Shown in pieces: positions 4,145-14,334 of a stretch of 14,609 bases of DNA (position 1 is the stretch's first letter; each line of letters starts with the position of its first letter). Source of the stretch: Asaia bogorensis (GTDB lineage: Bacteria; Pseudomonadota; Alphaproteobacteria; Acetobacterales; Acetobacteraceae); the NCBI GenBank assembly GCA_945871455.1, contig CAMBXJ010000046.1, forward strand, positions 1 through 14,609, given 5' to 3'. The notes below the pieces were generated by a model. It did not search any database, was not told the DNA's origin, and saw nothing but the letters and a program-made list of their open reading frames with translations. The position numbers and the translations under genes are program-made.

Positions 4145-5539
4145 CTAGTGCGAACCGGAACCGCCACGCGGTTTGACTACGCGGACGTGCGAGGCTCGAT
4201 CGGGAGTACTCGCCATCCTCTGAGGGGGCGCTGCCGGTGCTTGTGCCCGTTGCCCTGTCCATTCGTAGGAAACCGTGCCGGGCGGGTGTGTGTAGTGCCC
4301 AGGGTCCGCGTAGTCATTGGCGGCAAGCCCCTCCCGCACCTTCACGACCGAAAACATTCCACCCATTTCAACCGGGCCGAACTGCGCGAATCCGGTCATC
4401 ATCGGCAGCGTGTTGTCGGGTAGCGGCATCTCCATTTCGCCCATGTCGGCCATACCGGCCGAACCCATTGCCATGTAGTCGGGCACGAGGCGACGCATCT
4501 TCTTGGTGAAATCACGCTTGTTGACCCCGATGTAGGTCTTCACGTCGTGCCCCATCGCATTCATCGTATGGTGCGATTTGTGGCAGTGAATCGCCCAATC
4601 TCCTGGTTCATCGGCAACGAATTCATATGCACGCATGCCGCCGACGGGAATGTCGATCGTCACCTCCGGCCAGCGCGCCTCCGGCCTTACCCATCCGCCA
4701 TCGGTGCATGTCACCTCGAAGTGGTATCCGTGCATGTGTATCGGATGATTGGTCATGGTGAGGTTGCCGACCCGGACCCGCACGCGATCACCCTTGCGCA
4801 CCACCAACGGGTCGATCCCTGGGAAGGCGCGGCTGTTCCAGGTCCACAGGTTGAAGTCCAACATCGTATTGACCTTCGGCACATAGGCGCCAGGCTGGAT
4901 GTCGTAGGCGTTGAGGAGGAAAACGAAGTCGCGATCGACGCGGTGTTCGGTCGGGTTACGCGGGTGCACCACAAAGAACCCCATCATGCCCATCGCCATC
5001 TGCACCATTTCATCGGCATGCGGATGGTACATAAAGGTCCCGCTCTTCTTGAGCTCGTACTCGTAGACGAACGTCTTTCCCGGTTTGATGTGGGGCTGCG
5101 TGAGACCACCAACACCGTCCATGCCGCAAGGCAGAAGCTGACCATGCCAATGGATGGTCGTATGCTCGGGCAGGCGGTTGGTGACAAAGATGCGAACGCG
5201 ATCGCCTTCCACCGCTTCGATCGTCGGGCCCGGGCTTTGACCGTTATAGCCCCACAGGTGTGCCAACATTCCAGGGGCGATCTCGCGAACGACCGGCTCG
5301 GCGACGAGATGGAATTCCTTCCAGCCGTCCTTCATGCGCCACGGCAATGTCCACCCGTTGAGTGTGACGACCGGCTGGTAGTCCGGGCCTGTCGTTGGTT
5401 GCAGTGGCGGACGCATCTTCGCGTCGGCAACCGTCGCCGCCTCGGGGATCGATTGCGCCTGAACGCGTCCACTGACCGCCGCTGCGCCCAGCAAGGCAAG
5501 GCCAGATGAGGATATGAGGTTGCGACGGGGAAGGATCAT
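4145..5539 (-). CDS. Tat-exported two-domain multicopper oxidase
   Basis: Periplasmic oxidase of 464 aa, probably oxidising Cu(I) to Cu(II) with reduction of O2 to water. The N-terminus PRRNLISSSGLALLGAA is a Tat signal. Domain 1 carries HWHG (H130, H132) and HPH (H172, H174). Domain 2 carries HPIHMHG (H265, H268, H270) and HCHKSHHTMNAM (H318, C319, H320, H324, M329). Only about 90 residues separate the two ligand groups, so the middle domain of three-domain laccases and CueO is absent, and the type-1 site sits in domain 2. This matches type-B two-domain (small-laccase) oxidases. A C-terminal extension (about 346-464) has a Met-rich patch at 356-394 (MAMGSAGMADMGEMEM). The start is supported by AGGAGT 5 bases upstream. 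Annotation pipelines may call it CopA or 'copper oxidase'. Confidence 0.95.
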   Translation of the reverse strand: MILPRRNLISSSGLALLGAAAVSGRVQAQSIPEAATVADAKMRPPLQPTTGPDYQPVVTLNGWTLPWRMKDGWKEFHLVAEPVVREIAPGMLAHLWGYNGQSPGPTIEAVEGDRVRIFVTNRLPEHTTIHWHGQLLPCGMDGVGGLTQPHIKPGKTFVYEYELKKSGTFMYHPHADEMVQMAMGMMGFFVVHPRNPTEHRVDRDFVFLLNAYDIQPGAYVPKVNTMLDFNLWTWNSRAFPGIDPLVVRKGDRVRVRVGNLTMTNHPIHMHGYHFEVTCTDGGWVRPEARWPEVTIDIPVGGMRAYEFVADEPGDWAIHCHKSHHTMNAMGHDVKTYIGVNKRDFTKKMRRLVPDYMAMGSAGMADMGEMEMPLPDNTLPMMTGFAQFGPVEMGGMFSVVKVREGLAANDYADPGHYTHPPGTVSYEWTGQRAQAPAAPPQRMASTPDRASHVRVVKPRGGSGSH

Positions 5540-7527: not shown

Positions 7528-9903
7528 CTACGACAGCCGTACGCCACGTAAACGCAGCGCGTTGCCGATGACCGAGACGGAACTGAGGGCCATAGCGAGC
7601 GCCGCTACGATGGGGCTGAGCAACAGTCCGAAGGCGGGATACAGTACCCCGGCCGCCAGCGGCACGCCGGCCACGTTGTAGATAAAGGCAAACACCAGAT
7701 TCTGGCGGATGTTGCGCATCGTCGCCCGACTGAGGGTACGTGCCCGGGCGATGCCCATCAGGTCGCCCTTCACAAGCGTGACACCGGCGCTGTGCATCGC
7801 CACCTCGGTGCCGGTGCCCATTGCGATACCGACATCGGCCTCGGCCAGCGCCGGAGCGTCGTTCACGCCATCACCCGCCATCGCGACCACCTCGCCCTTG
7901 GTGCGCAGGTCACGGACGATGCGATGCTTGTCCTGCGGCATCACCTCGGCCTGCACATCGGTGATACCGAGTTTCCCAGCAATCGCATTTGCGGTGGTGG
8001 CATTGTCGCCGGTCAGCATCACGATGCGGATGCCATCCTGGCGTAACCGGTCGAGTGCTGCGGCCGTGCTTGCCTTCACCGGATCAGCGATGGCGATGAC
8101 GCCGCCCGGTTTCCCCTCGATACCCACGAACAGCACAGTTGCGCCGCCGCCGCGCATTTCGTCGGCCCGGGCGGCGAGGGTGGCGGTGTCTACCCCCTGC
8201 GCCTCCATCATACGCGCATTGCCCAATGCCACCTTGCGCCCGCCCACCATGCCCATCACGCCTTGGCCGGTTACCGAGGTGAATTCCTGTGGCTCGGAAA
8301 TGCTGGCGCCCTTGTCGCGCGCCGCTGCCACAATGGCCGCGGCCAACGGGTGCTCGCTCGACCGTTCCAGGCTGGCAGCGAGCGCCAGAAGCTCAGGTTC
8401 GGTCACGCCGTCGACCGGCACGATCTCCACGACACGCGGTTTGCCCTCCGTGAGAGTGCCCGTCTTGTCGACCACCAGGGTAGTGACTTTCTCCATGCGC
8501 TCCAGCGCCTCAGCCGACTTGATCAGCACGCCAGCGGTCGCGCCCTTGCCGACGCCAGTCATGATCGACATCGGTGTGGCGAGGCCCAGCGCGCAGGGAC
8601 AAGCGATGATCAACACCGAGACCGCCGCGATCAACCCATAGGCCAGCGCTGGCGCGGGTCCCCATATAGCCCAGGCGATGAAGGCCAGAACCGCCATCGC
8701 GATCACGACCGGGACGAAGTATCCCGAGACAGTATCCGCCATGCGCTGGATCGGTGCTCGGCTCCGCTGGGCTTCAGCCACCATGGCAACAATGCGCGCC
8801 AGCATGGTTTCGGCCCCCACCTTCTCGGCCTGCATCACCAGCGCGCCGGTCCCATTCACTGTGCCGCCGATGAGCTTGTCACCAGTCTCCTTGGCCAGCG
8901 GCATGGACTCGCCGGTGACCATGGACTCGTCCACAGCGCCGCGTCCCTCCAGCACCACCCCGTCCACCGGCACGGCGTCGCCCGGCCTGACGCGCAGCCG
9001 GTCCCCGGCCTGCACATGCCCGAGCGGGATCTCCTCATCCTCGCCCGAGGTGGTGATGCGCCGTGCGGTCTTGGGCGCGAGGTTCAACAGGGCGCGGATG
9101 GCGCCACCCGTCTGCTCGCGCGCCCGCAGTTCCAGCACCTGACCGAGCAGAACCAGCACGATGATGACCGCGCCGGCCTCGAAATAGACAGCAACGGAGC
9201 CGCCCTCCCCGCGGAAACCGGCGGGAAAGACACCGGGCACGAATGTGGCGAAAAGGCTGTAAAGGTAGGCGGCGCCGGTGCCGATCGCGATCAATGTGAA
9301 CATGTTGAGGTTGCGGGTGACCAGTGAAGCCCAGGCTCGCTCGAAGAACGGCCAGCCGGCCCACAGGATCACAGGGGTGGCGAGCAGGAATTGGATCCAA
9401 GTCGATGTGGCTGGGCTCATCAGATGGCGCAGCCCTAGCAGATGGCCACCCATTTCCAGCGCCACCACGGGCAACGTCAGCGCGGTGCCAATCCAGAACC
9501 GCCGCGTCATGTCGATCAGCTCGTGGTTCGGTGCGGCCTCAGCAGTGATTTCCACCGGTTCCAAGGCCATGCCGCAGATCGGGCAACTGCCGGGGCCGAC
9601 CTGCCGCACTTCCGGATGCATCGGGCAGGTGTAGATCGTGCCGGGCGGCGCAACCGGAGCGGCGAGCGCCTCGGCCTTGAGATAGAGGCCGGGGTCGTCA
9701 ACGAACTTCGTGCGGCAACGCGCCGAGCAGAAATGGAATGCTTGCCCATCATGCTCAGCATGATGCTTGGAGGTCTGCGGGTCGACTTTCATGCCACACA
9801 CGGGGTCGATTGCCATCAGCTCGTCCGCGTCCGCACGCAGATGTCCCCAAGTGTGTTCCGCTGCACCGTGGCCATCGTGGCTGTGCCGGTGATGATCGCT
9901 CAT
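7528..9903 (-). CDS. copA: Cu(I)-exporting P1B-type ATPase
   Basis: Inner-membrane ATPase of 791 aa that should pump Cu(I) (or Ag(I)) out of the cytoplasm. A His-rich start ([13 protein letters not shown]) is followed by a YHS-like segment DPVCGM (33-38; further Cys at 59 and 63) and a heavy-metal-binding segment [15 protein letters not shown] (93-112). There is no classical GMTCxxC domain. Core motifs: TGES (330-333), the membrane CPC ion site (435-437), DKTGT with phospho-acceptor D479, H518-P519, MLTGDN (629-634) and GDGVND (678-683). YN (742-743) and MALSS (771-775) in the last helices indicate the copper subclass. GGAGA 8 bases before ATG 9903 sets the start; the open frame beyond it runs antisense through csoR and is not used. 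It is divergent from csoR across a CsoR-like operator. Confidence 0.97.
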
Positions 9904-9940: not shown

Positions 9941-9971
9941 TTGAAGCGTATACCTATAGGGGGTATATAAT
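9941..9971 (+). promoter_or_regulatory. Promoter of csoR overlapping the operator
   Basis: A perfect -10 box TATAAT lies at 9966-9971, with TTGAAG (4 of 6 to consensus) at 9941-9946, separated by 19 bases that are largely filled by the palindrome. Transcription would start near 9976-9979, at or within the csoR ATG, implying a leaderless or nearly leaderless mRNA. Consistent with that, no good ribosome-binding site precedes the ATG. A matching promoter for the divergent ATPase gene is less clear; TATACG on the minus strand at 9952-9947 is a weak -10 candidate. Confidence 0.5.
9948..9968. promoter_or_regulatory. CsoR-type operator between csoR and the ATPase gene
   Basis: The sequence TATACCTATAGGGGGTATA (9949-9967) is an imperfect palindrome. 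TATACC at 9949-9954 mirrors GGTATA at 9962-9967 across 7 bases, and CCTATAGG at 9953-9960 is a perfect inner palindrome. Short C- and G-tracts between AT-rich arms are the known operator form of CsoR-family repressors. It lies 9 bases before the csoR start and 45 bases before the ATPase start, so one repressor could silence both genes. The palindrome is seen directly; CsoR binding is inferred. Confidence 0.72.
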
Positions 9972-9975
9972 AAGC

Positions 9976-10251
9976 ATGAGCTCCAATGCGAAAAAGTCGG
10001 TCCTGACCCGCTTGAAGCGGATCGAGGGTCAGGTGGGCGGCCTCCACCGGATGATCGACGAGGACCGCTACTGCACCGACGTCTTGATTCAGATCAATGC
10101 CGTGCTCGCTGCACTCCATAAGGTGGAGGCGGAGATCCTGCGCAATCACGTGGCACATTGCGTGGCCGATGCCTTCTCCGAGGGTGACCCCGAAGGACAG
10201 CGGCGAAAGGTCGAGGAACTGGTCGATATGATGAGTCGGATGACGAGGTAG
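9976..10251 (+). CDS. csoR: CsoR-family copper-sensing repressor
   Basis: All-helical DUF156 repressor of 91 aa. C33, H58 and C62 (in RYCTDV and RNHVAHCV) reproduce the Cu(I) triad of mycobacterial CsoR (C36, H61, C65) with identical spacing. This separates it from RcnR and FrmR types. The N-terminus [20 protein letters not shown] is the conserved first helix with basic DNA-contact residues. Cu(I) binding should release the protein from DNA and induce transcription. The adjacent palindrome makes autoregulation and control of the divergent ATPase gene likely. The next gene starts 4 bases after its stop, so the two are co-transcribed. Confidence 0.93.
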
Positions 10252-10255
10252 GAAG

Positions 10256-10702
10256 GTGCGGAAAGCCTGGCGGCGCAACATTGGCAGGGTCGCTGCACTC
10301 CTCGGAGTGATCGGTGCGCTTTTGATTGGAGCCAACCCCGCCTCAGCGCATGCCGGCGTCGGCCACATCTCCTTGGACGCAGCGTCCGTGGACGCTTCTG
10401 ATTTGACACAGATAATCCACCCACTTGATCGGCAAGCTCATGCACCCCAACGTGGCGTGACATCCGCGGCGTCGATCGCGGATAGCGATGGCGACAAGCA
10501 GCCCGCTGATTGCCCACATCAGCATGGTCGCACGTGCTGTGCGTCCGCATCGTGCCCAGCGTTCGGCTTGGCTCCAGCCGTTGGGTCGATGGATCTGCTT
10601 TCCTGGTCCTGCGCATCGCGTGCCGTCCAGAGCGCCGCAATGCTGTTGCCTGCGGGCTTCGATGGATCGCCATTGACGCCTCCACCCCGAAGGAACGGCT
10701 GA
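10256..10702 (+). CDS. Secreted Cys/His-rich protein coupled to csoR (CopL/DUF2946-like)
   Basis: A 148-aa protein starting at GTG 10256, with GAGG 7 bases upstream inside the end of csoR. A signal peptide (about 1-31, ending NPASA) is followed by a His-containing segment, a cluster [15 protein letters not shown] (86-100), and a hydrophobic stretch with another Cys (C119). Layout and size resemble CopL/DUF2946 proteins found beside copper genes, but I see no full-length match and place it there only by pattern. The four Cys and two His within 15 residues suggest metal binding in the periplasm. Tight coupling to the repressor suggests copper-controlled expression. Confidence 0.68.
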
Positions 10703-10822
10703 CCGGCTCAACGCCTGTCGTCCGTCGCACCGCCTTCGGTGCACTGCTCCTCAGACGTTTGTCGCCGCTGCCCTGTCGCGTGCCGCCCTTGCATCCGACC
10801 TCTTCAAGGACCGAACGTCATC

Positions 10823-11983
10823 ATGCCCGCACACCGCATCTATCAGCGTCCGTTGGCGCCCGCCGCCGGCGTCAGGCTGACATCCCGTCTGAGCTATCCT
10901 CGGACGACCGCCATCGAGCCACCGCTGCGCGCCAACGGTGAGAGTGCCGGAGAAGTTGGCACGCCATTCCGCAGACCGCGATCGTCGCGCCGTGCCCTGC
11001 TAGGCGGTGCGCTGCTCGCTCTTGCCGCGCCAACCCCCGGACGTGCGGCGACGAGTGGTACTGTGTTCACCGCCGACGAACTCGGAGGATCGATCACTGC
11101 CGTCAAACTGCCGGCCGGTATCGTCCGCACTCTACGGCTGCCCATCGCGCCCCATAATGTGGACCTCAGTAGCGACGGTCGCAGCCTGCTGCTGGTCGGA
11201 TTGCCGCCCGGCGGAACACACGCCGCGGGGGGCGGCCGGCTCCTGGTTCTCGACTCCGGCGACATCACGAAACCGCCTCAGGCCGAAATCGCCATCGGCC
11301 CCCATCCTGCGCATGTGGTCCCCGACGCCGATGGCATCCATGCCTATGTCACCGACTCACATGAGGGAGTCGTCATTGTGGTGGATCTGAAGGCCGGGCG
11401 TGTCGTCGCGCGCATTCCCGTCGGCGCAGAGCCGCATGGGCTGCGCCTGGCCCCCAGTGAAGCCGAGCTCTACGTGGCCAACATGCGCAGCAACGATGTC
11501 TCGGTGGTGGATGTGCGAAACCGCAAGGAGGTGGCGCGCATTCAGGTCGGCCGCGTGCCTGTCCAGGTGGCATTCACCCCGGATGGACGCCAGGTCTTCG
11601 CCTCGCTGAACGGCGAGAACCGCGTGGCGATCATCGATCGGACCGAGCGCAAGCGAGTGGGTAGCGCTCCGGTGGGCCGCAATCCGGTGCAACTCCAGGT
11701 CACGCCGGATGGCAGGTGGCTTTACGTCGCCAACCAAGGCAGCAAGGCCGAGCCCGACGAAACCGTCTCAGTCATCGACGTCACGACCCAGCAGCCTGTC
11801 GCGACCATCCCATCTGGGCGCGGCGCGCATGGCATTGCCATGAGCCATGACGGAGCATTGGTCTTCGTCAGCAACATCGTCGACGGCTCCATCGCCGTGC
11901 TGGAAGTTGCAACCCAGTCCCGTCGAAGCGTCCATCGCGTAGGTGCCGGCCCCAACGGCATCGCCTTCCTCCCCTCGGCCTAG
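10823..11983 (+). CDS. Tat-exported YVTN beta-propeller protein
   Basis: A 386-aa periplasmic beta-propeller of the YVTN/YncE type. Repeats of the form 'HG+...EAELYVANMRSNDVSVVD', 'TPDGRWLYVANQG', 'HDGALVFVSN...G+IAVLE' occur about every 40-45 residues from about 80 to the end, enough for seven blades. A Tat motif SRRALLGG lies at about 55-62, so the chosen ATG leaves an unusually long, Arg-rich region before it. No in-frame ATG or GTG lies closer, and AAGGA upstream of 10823 is spaced far (13 bases). Such proteins recur in alphaproteobacterial copper clusters without a proven role; a scaffold or metal-handling function is a guess. The gap from the previous gene (120 bases) holds nothing I recognise. 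Confidence 0.88.
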   Translation: MPAHRIYQRPLAPAAGVRLTSRLSYPRTTAIEPPLRANGESAGEVGTPFRRPRSSRRALLGGALLALAAPTPGRAATSGTVFTADELGGSITAVKLPAGIVRTLRLPIAPHNVDLSSDGRSLLLVGLPPGGTHAAGGGRLLVLDSGDITKPPQAEIAIGPHPAHVVPDADGIHAYVTDSHEGVVIVVDLKAGRVVARIPVGAEPHGLRLAPSEAELYVANMRSNDVSVVDVRNRKEVARIQVGRVPVQVAFTPDGRQVFASLNGENRVAIIDRTERKRVGSAPVGRNPVQLQVTPDGRWLYVANQGSKAEPDETVSVIDVTTQQPVATIPSGRGAHGIAMSHDGALVFVSNIVDGSIAVLEVATQSRRSVHRVGAGPNGIAFLPSA

Positions 11984-12023
11984 CACCCGCCTGGCCGCCA
12001 TCCCATCCAACAGGAACATCGCC

Positions 12024-12896
12024 ATGAACCGCACGACATTGCTTATCTCGACCGCGCTGCTCGCCTTATCCATCGCCGGCGCCCCGCTTGCCGGCTTGGC
12101 CCAAGGCCAGGCTCAGCCGCCCGCGCCCCAGGCGCAGGGCGCAGACAAGGGCAACGAGGACCACAAGGAGCACCACCCGACGGGCGCGACGACAGCGCAG
12201 GCCGCACCAGGGACTGCGACCCCCGCACCCGCGCCGTCCGTGCCCGGTCAAGCAGGGGCCGGCCAGGCTCCCGCCATGGGAATGATGGGCGGTGGCATGG
12301 GCATGATGGGAGGCGATATGGGTGCCATGATGCAGCGCATGATGCCGATGATGCGCGGCATGATGGCGCAGCACGGCATGGAGCGGATGGACGGGCCCAT
12401 GGGCATGATGGCCCCCGGACGAGTCGAGGGGCGCATTGCCTTCCTGCGCACCGAGCTACAGATCACCGAGGCACAAACTCCCGCTTGGAATGCCTTTGCC
12501 GACGTGCTCCGTGCGCAAGCCCGCGGCATGGGAGCGATGCGCAGCCGGATGATGGGCAACAGCGCGATGCCCGCGGGACAAATGCCGACCGGGCCGATGC
12601 CAGGCGCCCAGGCGCCGGGCAGCCCGCCGTCGGCTGGACCGATGCCAGGTGGGCAGATGCCGGGCGGGCAAGCGACTGGCCGTCCGATGCCGGGAGCTGG
12701 AATGGGAATGATGCCGAACCAAGGCGCGACAGTCAGTTTCCCTGACCATGCCGACCAGGTTGTCCAGATGCTGGCGGCCAGTCATGAAGCGGCGCGGGCA
12801 ATCGCCACCACGGGGCGCGCGCTTTATGCAGTGCTGACCGACACCCAGAAGAAGACGGCCGACGAACTCCTCGCAATGCCAATGCGCGGCATGTGA
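12024..12896 (+). CDS. Met-rich Spy/CpxP-like (LTxxQ) periplasmic protein
   Basis: A 290-aa secreted protein with 38 methionines (13%). After the signal peptide (about 1-26) come a Pro/Ala-rich linker with His (36-80), a dense Met/Gly block (85-129, 20 Met in 45 residues), a helical half with LQITEAQ (145-151), a Pro-Met-Gly low-complexity insert (180-232, units such as MPGGQMPGGQ), and a second helical half ending with LTDTQ (271-275). The paired LTxxQ-like motifs mark the Spy/CpxP fold. Runs of Met suit Cu(I) binding, so it likely buffers periplasmic copper or protects proteins from it. AGGA sits 8 bases before ATG 12024. It lies 40 bases after the propeller gene and is likely co-transcribed. 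Confidence 0.85.
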   Translation: MNRTTLLISTALLALSIAGAPLAGLAQGQAQPPAPQAQGADKGNEDHKEHHPTGATTAQAAPGTATPAPAPSVPGQAGAGQAPAMGMMGGGMGMMGGDMGAMMQRMMPMMRGMMAQHGMERMDGPMGMMAPGRVEGRIAFLRTELQITEAQTPAWNAFADVLRAQARGMGAMRSRMMGNSAMPAGQMPTGPMPGAQAPGSPPSAGPMPGGQMPGGQATGRPMPGAGMGMMPNQGATVSFPDHADQVVQMLAASHEAARAIATTGRALYAVLTDTQKKTADELLAMPMRGM

Positions 12897-12986
12897 GCCA
12901 TCGCGTCGACCGCGCTGTGGGAGTGGCAGCCTAACGGCCGCGGCTCCCCGGCACCGCAAAACTTGCGAGGTTTAGGAGCTGCTGAA

Positions 12987-13250
12987 ATGGACGAACCGTC
13001 TCACTCACCTTGGTGGCGCAGTGCCCGCGGGCTTGCGCTCTGCGGCTTCCTGCTGATTGCAGGGTTCTTCCTGATCACGGAGCACACTGCGCACGTGTTC
13101 GGGGTTCTGCCTTTCGTTCTACTCCTCCTCTGCCCACTGATGCACCTGTTCCACCACGGCCGGCATCGTGGTCATGGCGGCCATGGGCACCATCACGCCG
13201 CTCAACGCGACGGCGCGAACCCGCCTCCTCGTCCAGGAGCCCAGCCATGA
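12987..13250 (+). CDS. DUF2933-family small membrane protein with His tail
   Basis: An 87-aa protein with two closely spaced membrane segments (about 17-31 and 36-54). The intervening TEHTAHVFG and following LCPLMHLFHHG are the conserved DUF2933 core. The tail HHGRHRGHGGHGHHH (56-70) is strongly His-rich and suits binding of Cu or another metal near the membrane. AGGAG 8 bases before ATG 12987 sets the start; a TTG at 12963 would add 8 residues and lacks support. The stop overlaps the next ATG (ATGA). DUF2933 proteins are common in metal-resistance clusters but have no assigned function that I know. Confidence 0.85.
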   Translation: MDEPSHSPWWRSARGLALCGFLLIAGFFLITEHTAHVFGVLPFVLLLLCPLMHLFHHGRHRGHGGHGHHHAAQRDGANPPPRPGAQP

Positions 13251-13906
13251 CCCACGACAGCAGCGCTTACGGCCTGTGGTTCCTGGTGGCACTGAACTCG
13301 GCCGTCTTCATCCTGTTCGCCTTCAGTTTTGGCAAACCGCAGTCGCCGCGTGATTGGCGGTCCTTCGGCGCATTCAGCGCGTTTATCATTGCGCTATTCG
13401 CTGAAATGTATGGCTTTCCGCTGACGATTTACTTGCTGTCCGGCTGGCTGCAGACCCGTTACCCCGCGGTTGATATCCTTTCGCACGATGCCGGACATTT
13501 ATGGTCGACGCTATTCGGCGTTAACGGCAATCCCCACTTCGGTGTCCTGCATATCCTGAGCGCGGTGTTCATCGGCGCCGGCTTCATCCTGCTATCGGCG
13601 GCATGGCGCGTGTTGCATGCAGCGCAAGCAGTCGGGCGCTTGGCAACGACTGGACCTTACGCCCGTGTGCGGCATCCCCAATACATAGCGTTCATCGCTA
13701 TCCTGCTCGGCTTCCTGCTTCAATGGCCGACCTTGCTGACCTTGGCGATGTTCCCTGTCCTGGTCGCTATGTATATTCGCCTCGCTCATCGCGAGGAATC
13801 CGACGTGCGGAAGGCCTTCGGCGAGGAGTACGACCGCTATGCAGCTCGGGTGCCCCGTTGGCTACCCCGACGCCAATCTGGTGACGTGGGCCGCCGCACA
13901 GCATGA
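13247..13906 (+). CDS. Isoprenylcysteine carboxyl-methyltransferase-like membrane protein
   Basis: A 219-aa membrane protein of the ICMT/PEMT superfamily, presumed to transfer a methyl group from S-adenosylmethionine. About five membrane helices are visible. The C-terminal SAM-binding signature is present: GPYARVRHPQY (136-146), then HREESDVRKAFGEEYDRYAARVPRWLP (181-207) with the typical E..L/F...Y..Y...V.R..P pattern. The ATG lies in an ATGA overlap with the DUF2933 gene and has AGGAG upstream. Bacteria do not prenylate proteins in the eukaryotic way, so the substrate is unknown. Related proteins (CzcN-like) sit in other metal-resistance operons. Overlap with both neighbours suggests stoichiometric expression. 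Confidence 0.9.
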   Translation: MTHDSSAYGLWFLVALNSAVFILFAFSFGKPQSPRDWRSFGAFSAFIIALFAEMYGFPLTIYLLSGWLQTRYPAVDILSHDAGHLWSTLFGVNGNPHFGVLHILSAVFIGAGFILLSAAWRVLHAAQAVGRLATTGPYARVRHPQYIAFIAILLGFLLQWPTLLTLAMFPVLVAMYIRLAHREESDVRKAFGEEYDRYAARVPRWLPRRQSGDVGRRTA

Positions 13907-14334
13907 CGAATGCGGCCTGGCTGCCTGCTATACGTCGCTACATGGTTATCTCCTTGCTTGGCCATGCCATTTGGGAGGTGGTGCAATTGCCACTGTTCAC
14001 GCTGTGGCGAGAAAAACCGCCTTGGACAGTCGCATTCGCGGCGTTGCACTGTCTGGGCGGTGACCTTGCGATCGCCAGCACAGTGCTGGTCGCAGCACTC
14101 CTACTGGCAGGGCGCCATGATTGGCCAAGCGGTGGCGCGGGAAGTGTAGCGATGCTTGCACTCACTTTCGGTGGCGTCTACACGGGCTGGAGCGAATACA
14201 GTAATGCCATCGTCAGGCAGACATGGACCTACACGAGCGCGATGCCTCTTGTTCCTTGGTTGGGCATTGGTGTTACGCCGCTATTGCAGTGGCTTATCAT
14301 ACCCGCCCTCGCCCTGCGTGCCGCTTCGCGGTAG
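13903..14334 (+). CDS. Unnamed four-helix membrane protein of copper clusters
   Basis: A 143-aa integral membrane protein with four predicted helices (about 13-33, 44-70, 81-100, 113-138). Polar or charged residues sit inside or at the ends of the helices: H21, E25 and Q28 (GHAIWEVVQLPLF), H49, C50 and D54 (LHCLGGDL), E98 and N101 (GWSEYSNAIV), Q129 (LLQW). These look like conserved functional positions, possibly metal or cofactor ligands. I recognise the general pattern from copper and other accessory clusters but know no name or function. The ATG is in an ATGA overlap with the methyltransferase gene, so the two are translationally coupled. It is the last gene of the plus-strand block. Confidence 0.8.
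   Translation: MTNAAWLPAIRRYMVISLLGHAIWEVVQLPLFTLWREKPPWTVAFAALHCLGGDLAIASTVLVAALLLAGRHDWPSGGAGSVAMLALTFGGVYTGWSEYSNAIVRQTWTYTSAMPLVPWLGIGVTPLLQWLIIPALALRAASR

Follow-up and report, generated by a model that had tools for sequence, protein, structure and literature searches.

The three overlapping genes at the end of the window (the whole analysed stretch of 14,609 nucleotides from Asaia bogorensis, contig CAMBXJ010000046.1) appear to form the inner-membrane part at the end of a copper-resistance operon that is probably under CsoR control, and to be made of two units. One of them is DUF2933 with the methyltransferase, whose genes overlap and which are already published as a copper-island pair. 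The other would be the unnamed gene 3, often accompanied by a two-helix protein of the DUF2933 type (DUF2933 itself, here class A, or the related classes B and C); the gene 3 family with its DUF2933-like partners B and C is the new part. Most explanations of copper islands centre on CopA, multicopper oxidases and efflux pumps; no role has been assigned to the small membrane proteins and methyltransferases that recur in them. We tentatively propose that near CopA gene 3 and a DUF2933-type partner form an inner-membrane copper(I) site, to which the methyltransferase would be an optional accessory; we infer this mechanism and regard it as possible rather than probable.

The trio is encoded on the plus strand and consists of the DUF2933 gene (gene 1, 12987–13250, 87 aa), an ICMT/PEMT-type membrane methyltransferase (gene 2, 13247–13906, 219 aa) and gene 3 (13903–14334, 143 aa), an unnamed four-helix membrane protein of a copper-island family. 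The genes are joined by two ATGA overlaps (13247–13250 and 13903–13906, plus strand), and the coordinates, strand and lengths given in the original prediction were all confirmed. The trio closes a co-directional plus-strand run (9976–14334) with a csoR-type repressor gene at its head (9976–10251; Pfam PF02583, E 1.4e-29). Between them lie, on the same strand, a csoR-adjacent gene of 148 aa without a Pfam match (10256–10702), a gene for a beta-propeller protein (10739–11983; cytochrome d1/YncE-like by Pfam) and an LTXXQ (Spy/CpxP-type) gene (11943–12896; Pfam PF07813, E 2.7e-13), the true start of which is probably located within the frame. The gene of the copper P-type ATPase CopA (7528–9903, minus strand, start at 9903 as read from the DNA) is divergent from csoR, and the intergenic region harbors the inverted repeat TATACC-N7-GGTATA (9949–9967), which we take to resemble a CsoR operator. 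A multicopper oxidase gene (4145–5539, minus strand; Pfam Cu-oxidase_3, E 2.1e-41) belongs to the same island. The run from csoR to gene 3 is probably co-transcribed as one CsoR-controlled copper-resistance operon. The closest relative locus, L020 from a Rhodospirillales assembly, has the entire trio and a gene 3 that is 91% identical. An LTXXQ match upstream of DUF2933 is present also at L032, L053, L095 and L127. DUF411 profile matches were seen immediately upstream of DUF2933 or gene 3, or next to one of them, at L016, L032, L074, L083 and L115, with an LTXXQ match close by at L016, L032 and L115; this gene order may recur.

Gene 1 passes the Pfam model of DUF2933 (PF11666; E 1.2e-21, 77 bits vs a cut-off of 21, residues 20–69). 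Its product has two hydrophobic segments (by eye) with CPLMH in the second one and a C-terminal tail whose His-rich character, as originally predicted, can be read in the translation. The single Cys of the second helix is retained in 13 of 13 class A seeds. The pairing of this gene with the methyltransferase was assessed in a class sample (200 genomes asked for, 190 searched, methyltransferase threshold E 1e-20), in which DUF2933 occurs in 17 of the 190 genomes (19 places) and the methyltransferase in 14 (15 places). A DUF2933 domain is found within 100 bases at 14 of these 15 methyltransferase places, all but the one in genome G076, and 5 of the 19 DUF2933 places are without an adjoining methyltransferase match at the same threshold. 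Of the 12 methyltransferase places in a phylum sample of 200 genomes, which overlaps with the class sample, 8 adjoin DUF2933. All nine triad loci inspected, the window among them, keep the ATGA overlap between DUF2933 and the methyltransferase; the methyltransferase and gene 3 are joined by ATGA in three of the nine (the window, L020 and L053), and at L032 this overlap reads GTGA. A methyltransferase homologue at G188:C8:53817–54347, which adjoins DUF2933, contains an internal TGA, which probably reflects decay of the copy or an error of sequencing.

The pair has a published copper context. Available excerpts of an Alteromonas paper (PMC8478169) tabulate merR-copA-cupredoxin clusters of various genera that contain DUF2933 and ICMT-family genes, and describe genes of the copper systems of that paper as induced by copper, and the ICMT-family proteins CzcN and NccN are named in metal clusters in excerpts of two others (PMC7563307, PMC12029693). 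The excerpts of these three papers contain no mechanism for the pair or for CzcN/NccN. Because the pair is tabulated in copper islands, the earlier statement that none of the three genes had been linked to copper fails for DUF2933 and the methyltransferase.

The best Pfam match of the methyltransferase is PEMT (PF04191; 34.9 bits vs a cut-off of 25), and ICMT (PF04140; 25.1 bits vs a cut-off of 24) is passed as well; the matches fall in the C-terminal SAM region. The same region resembles ICMT structures by profile (4a2n, E 1.9e-10; 5v7p, E 6.3e-8) and by Foldseek (5v7p and 4a2n best, probability 1.0, E about 0.02), the latter for a predicted fold with mean pLDDT 72 that is good chiefly in the C-terminal half. 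The SAM-methyltransferase signature that had been predicted is borne out by these matches and by R142-H143-P144-Q145 and E183-E184, which are invariant in 29 aligned sequences together with an N-terminal signature (E53-M54-Y55, F57-P58-L59, H80 and G83-H84-L85). The protein remains far below the NCBIfam equivalog cut-offs of the true protein-S-isoprenylcysteine O-methyltransferase (NF040696; 42.6 bits vs 160) and of the methanethiol S-methyltransferase MddA (NF045656; 22.4 bits vs 270), hence no substrate can be assigned from those two models. The sole source of an assignment as phospholipid N-methyltransferase is the Pfam family match.

For gene 3, protein search gave 64 homologues, and 54 sequences were aligned. 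Its model (mean pLDDT 95.1, pTM 0.86) agrees with the four-helix protein expected earlier and has long helices at residues 6–31, 40–69, 79–104 and 124–142. Among the 54 sequences, two of the polar residues pointed out in the original prediction (D54, E98) are invariant and four (E25, H49, C50, N101) at least 90% conserved, while H21 is variable (H or N in the alignment rows shown). The full set of positions conserved at this level of at least 90% comprises W24-E25, L29-P30, H49-C50, G53-D54, S97-E98 and N101, and further W108, Y110, M114-P115, G123, P126 and Q129-W130. In the model the conserved residues cluster at helix ends near loops 1 and 3. The content of Lys and Arg per residue is about 0.17 and 0.19 at the termini and 0.13 in loop 2, and drops to 0.07 in loop 1 and 0.08 in loop 3; by the positive-inside rule this charge pattern suggests that the conserved face is periplasmic. 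C50 is the only conserved cysteine in the 54 sequences, therefore the protein is without a conserved intramolecular disulfide.

By sequence, gene 3 belongs to no named family of Pfam or NCBIfam. Pfam returned for gene 3 only DUF3267 (E 0.4, 11.5 bits vs a cut-off of 27.1) and for the 54 homologues weak scattered matches, the best of them being TctB (E 0.0014, in 2 of 54). NCBIfam gave no family for gene 3, and comparison of its model with the PDB gave no convincing fold match. No paper describing gene 3 was found among the titles, abstract beginnings and excerpts of the open-licence literature searched, which for a nameless family is weak evidence of absence.

The neighbourhoods of gene 3 were collected from 104 loci (a genome scan plus plasmid, genus, class and phylum stretches), which form 74 clusters at 80% identity. 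Fifty-five of the clusters have at least 8 kb of flank, counted up to 6 kb per side, and the other 19 are below 8 kb. The scan confirmed 443 relatives, and the best 80 loci were kept, so that close relatives are over-represented. Short stretches (L001, L010–L019, L100–L112), mostly superseded by longer ones from the same places, were left out of the 55-locus counts; the places in G116, G158 and G166 (L108, L102 and L110) and a weak match in G001 also lie outside them. The latter match (E 5e-4) was rejected as gene 3, its locus L015 being without a profile match. The genus sample gave a match in 7 of 40 relatives. One of the 55 loci, L131, was left out of the tree. Its 518-aa frame with a gene 3 end was rejected as a functional fusion, since the translation reads as a truncated remnant running into a TolC-like stretch. 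This remnant (L131:5424–6977, the G009 match of the genus sample) lies beside CusB and CusA matches. The neighbourhood profiles were built mostly from these same neighbourhoods, and gene gaps were taken from stop-to-stop frames, which slightly overstates adjacency.

A family of the copper/metal list (CopA, multicopper oxidase, CsoR, CueR/MerR, two cupredoxin profiles, CusA, DUF411, SCO and PCuAC) is found within 10 kb of gene 3 in 52 of the 55 non-redundant loci, the scan part of which is the best 80 of 443, vs 1 of 13 control stretches (SCO); the control is small and consists of random 20-kb stretches from 8 genomes, with the window's own cupredoxin profile left out. CopA, multicopper oxidase, gene 3, the ICMT-type gene and a DUF2933-type protein were matched in 0 of the 13 control stretches, and a class I methyltransferase in one. 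Within the same 10 kb of gene 3, and with the same selection of the best 80 of 443 in the scan part, the 55 loci contain CopA (33), multicopper oxidase (27), DUF411 (25), cytochrome c (24), TlpA/DsbE (22), CueR/MerR (21), SCO (20), CcdA (18) and CusA (15), as well as class B (22), DUF2933 (12), class C (1), the ICMT-type methyltransferase (11) and a class I methyltransferase (11). A DUF2933-type protein of any class is present within 10 kb in 35 and within 3 kb in 29 of these 55 loci (scan part, best 80 of 443); the remaining 20 have no A, B or C match within 10 kb, so the partner is either dispensable or undetected there.

The trio as a whole is much rarer. The full triad lies within 1.5 kb in 8 of the 74 clusters (scan part, best 80 of 443) and in two gene orders, gene 3 leading in L079, L115 and L116. 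Four clusters (L074, L083, L113 and L127) have DUF2933 by gene 3 without the methyltransferase, and three have the methyltransferase by gene 3 without a detected DUF2933. The three-gene functional unit of the original prediction is not supported by these counts and by the 11 of 55 loci with a methyltransferase within 10 kb; of the adjacency proposed there, that of DUF2933 and the methyltransferase stood and that of the full trio is kept in a minority of clusters. The location of the trio in a copper locus, near to CopA and multicopper oxidase genes, was confirmed, and by position DUF2933 is linked separately with the methyltransferase and with gene 3. In the class sample, among the candidates scored, DUF2933 is carried by 8 of the 11 genomes with gene 3 and by 9 of the 179 without it (Fisher's test, p about 1e-7, relatedness uncorrected), a co-occurrence that rests on the Pfam DUF2933 and gene 3 profiles and is thus free of the seeding bias of class B described below. 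A neighbour pair of DUF2933 and gene 3 occurs outside the window's class, at G286:C32. In the gene 3 phylogeny (73 rows), 30 of the 70 inner branches are open, and the window sits on a long branch. On this tree the label "DUF2933 or methyltransferase adjacent" changes at least 9 times (without a shuffled comparison); because the tree is poorly supported, a repeated origin of the linkage is unproven.

The members of classes B and C are small, have two hydrophobic segments and carry PC..M in the second of these. They are unannotated: class B is found at L003:4908–5180, L005:6620–6895, L007:6959–7249 and L023:8566–8853, and class C at L012:672–986, L060:8666–8980, L057:9216–9554 and L091:18681–18995, L057 carrying both classes. 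For the class B example L003:4908–5180 Pfam gives no family over its cut-off. Invariant in 19 class B sequences are R23, G48, P51, P58-C59, M62-C63, G66 and C68 (PC..MC..G.C); the motif of class C is PCA.MM..CM, and 2 of its 3 seeds have an HGG tail. Single pairwise profile comparisons relate class C to both class A (E 1.4e-7, probability 94) and class B (E 5.8e-10, probability 97), the match of A with B being weaker (E 1.3e-5, probability 81), and judging by these profiles class C would bridge DUF2933 and class B. In L003, L005 and L007 class B sits within DUF411/DsbE/SCO/CcdA copper operons. In the class and phylum samples the first-look candidates of gene 3 and class B were scored only in part for many genomes. 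Among the candidates scored, a class A or B protein lies no farther than about 2.1 kb from gene 3 at 9 of its 11 class-sample places (class B at 6 and, within 1 kb, DUF2933 at 3), and at the remaining two, in G161 and G166, DUF2933 is about 5.5 and 13 kb away. Class B was found, among the candidates scored, in 10 of the 190 class-sample genomes. As it was seeded beside gene 3 and at least one sample genome (G076) is apparently a seed, its enrichment near gene 3 is partly built in.

The DUF411/DsbE/SCO/CcdA copper operons, which house many gene 3 homologues, suit a role in thiol redox or maturation equally well. It is possible, albeit unlikely, that gene 3 is the membrane part of a CcdA/DsbE/DUF411-type chain for thiol and cytochrome or copper-site maturation with C50 as a redox or metal contact. 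Within 1.5 kb of gene 3, CcdA is present in 16, SCO in 19 and TlpA/DsbE in 11 of the 55 loci (scan part, best 80 of 443), and gene 3 overlaps the start of ccdA in four plasmid loci (L002, L003, L005 and L007). However, the protein has no second conserved cysteine that could form a disulfide with C50, and CcdA and SCO matches are found in 0 of 9 triad loci (the window and eight others) in the stretches covered. That gene 3 and the pair are separate cargo of copper islands, brought together here by an ATGA overlap without a joint function, would agree with the varying gene order and the small number of loci with a methyltransferase, and nevertheless seems rather unlikely to us: DUF2933 adjoins gene 3 even where the methyltransferase is missing, the two are neighbours in another class as well, and they co-occur with the above p of about 1e-7, relatedness uncorrected.

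Other explanations concern the methyltransferase. Under copper stress it might N-methylate phosphatidylethanolamine or another amine lipid and thereby remove a Cu(II)-binding amine, in which case DUF2933 would anchor or regulate the enzyme and gene 3 would be independent. Cu(II) reportedly binds phosphatidylethanolamine with an increase of lipid oxidation, as the title of Poyton et al. from 2016 has it, and the phospholipid methyltransferase model is the best Pfam match of gene 2. Class I (UbiE/ArsM/PmtA-like) methyltransferases near gene 3 (for instance L025:8913–9983, L002:9206–9820, L054:11206–11820 and L080:11123–11794) also speak for it; 9 of the 11 loci that have one within 10 kb, out of 55 with the scan part being the best 80 of 443, are without an ICMT-type gene. 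In L025 the class I gene is placed between the ICMT-type gene and gene 3, and in L002 after ccdA, two genes past gene 3. However, three of the 11 matches are weaker (L050, 41 bits; L073, 42 bits; L125, 80 bits), and 11 of 55 loci vs 1 of 13 control stretches is a modest enrichment. The curated NCBIfam models of UbiE, ArsM and PmtA are all below cut-off for these proteins; with none assigned, a common substrate by way of a PmtA-like second methyltransferase was rejected. Furthermore, no paper tying phospholipid methylation to copper resistance was found among the titles and abstract beginnings searched. Altogether, a protective methylation of lipids is unlikely. In excerpts of PMC7563307, ubiE-annotated methyltransferase genes beside the Cupriavidus cop cluster are described as copper-induced.

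Enzymes of the ICMT fold act on sulfur-bearing or lipid-like substrates at membranes. An MddA-like methylation of small thiols or of the DUF2933 Cys, turning a thiol into a thioether copper ligand, would be in line with this, with the weak MddA match of gene 2 and with the second-helix Cys kept in all class A seeds. It is improbable in view of the distance of gene 2 from the MddA cut-off and of the DUF2933 places in the class sample that have no adjoining methyltransferase match at E 1e-20.

In the preferred reading, that of a copper(I) site, gene 3 would supply the conserved polar residues E25, H49, C50, D54, E98, N101 and Q129 near the periplasmic face, and the partner the Cys, Met and His of its second helix and also a tail rich in His or Cys that is probably cytoplasmic. 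The predicted site may hold copper or pass it between periplasmic copper proteins and CopA. The target of the methyltransferase would be embedded in the membrane, and a phospholipid amine or a partner protein is the most plausible candidate. The copper and metal context of gene 3 and its proximity to DUF2933-type proteins argue for such a site, and an obligate link of the partner with gene 3 is opposed by the 4 of 10 class B genomes without gene 3 (class sample, candidates scored). A wider version, in which gene 3 and the hairpins of the DUF2933 superfamily (A, B and C) constitute a copper(I) relay of the inner membrane that is common to many alphaproteobacterial copper islands and has gone unrecognised, with interchangeable methyltransferases of two unrelated folds that modify one membrane target and so contribute to copper protection, is unlikely too. 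The class I match in the control gives less weight both to this version and to the protective methylation of lipids. With the present comparison the known pair is separated from the unnamed gene 3, class B and class C, the conserved residues of which are listed above. If the methyltransferase step holds true, membrane methylation would be a part of bacterial copper defence.

The closest known systems share parts of this arrangement. The merR-copA-cupredoxin-DUF2933-isoprenylcysteine methyltransferase cluster of Alteromonas and other genera, as tabulated in excerpts of PMC8478169, has adjacent DUF2933 and ICMT-family genes with CopA; the likeness is drawn at the level of gene family. In contrast to the window, where the run is headed by csoR and has the beta-propeller and LTXXQ genes upstream, gene 3 is absent from the table rows contained in these excerpts. 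CzcN and NccN of the Czc and Ncc clusters (excerpts of PMC7563307 and PMC12029693) are likewise membrane proteins of methyltransferase type in metal-resistance clusters, but the context there is Zn/Co/Cd or Ni, and they are likened by description. The ICMT structures 4a2n (Ma-ICMT) and 5v7p/5vg9 (eukaryotic) correspond by profile and predicted fold to the C-terminal SAM-binding region of gene 2, whereas its N-terminal half with E53-M54-Y55, H80 and G83-H84-L85 lies outside the profile match, and the score below the curated equivalog cut-off sets it apart from a true ICMT. Finally, the alphaproteobacterial plasmid copper operons of the DUF411/DsbE/SCO/CcdA type (L002, L003, L005 and L007) contain gene 3 homologues of 43–49% identity and a DUF2933-like class B protein; unlike the window, they have neither a class A DUF2933 match nor a methyltransferase (P0001) match.
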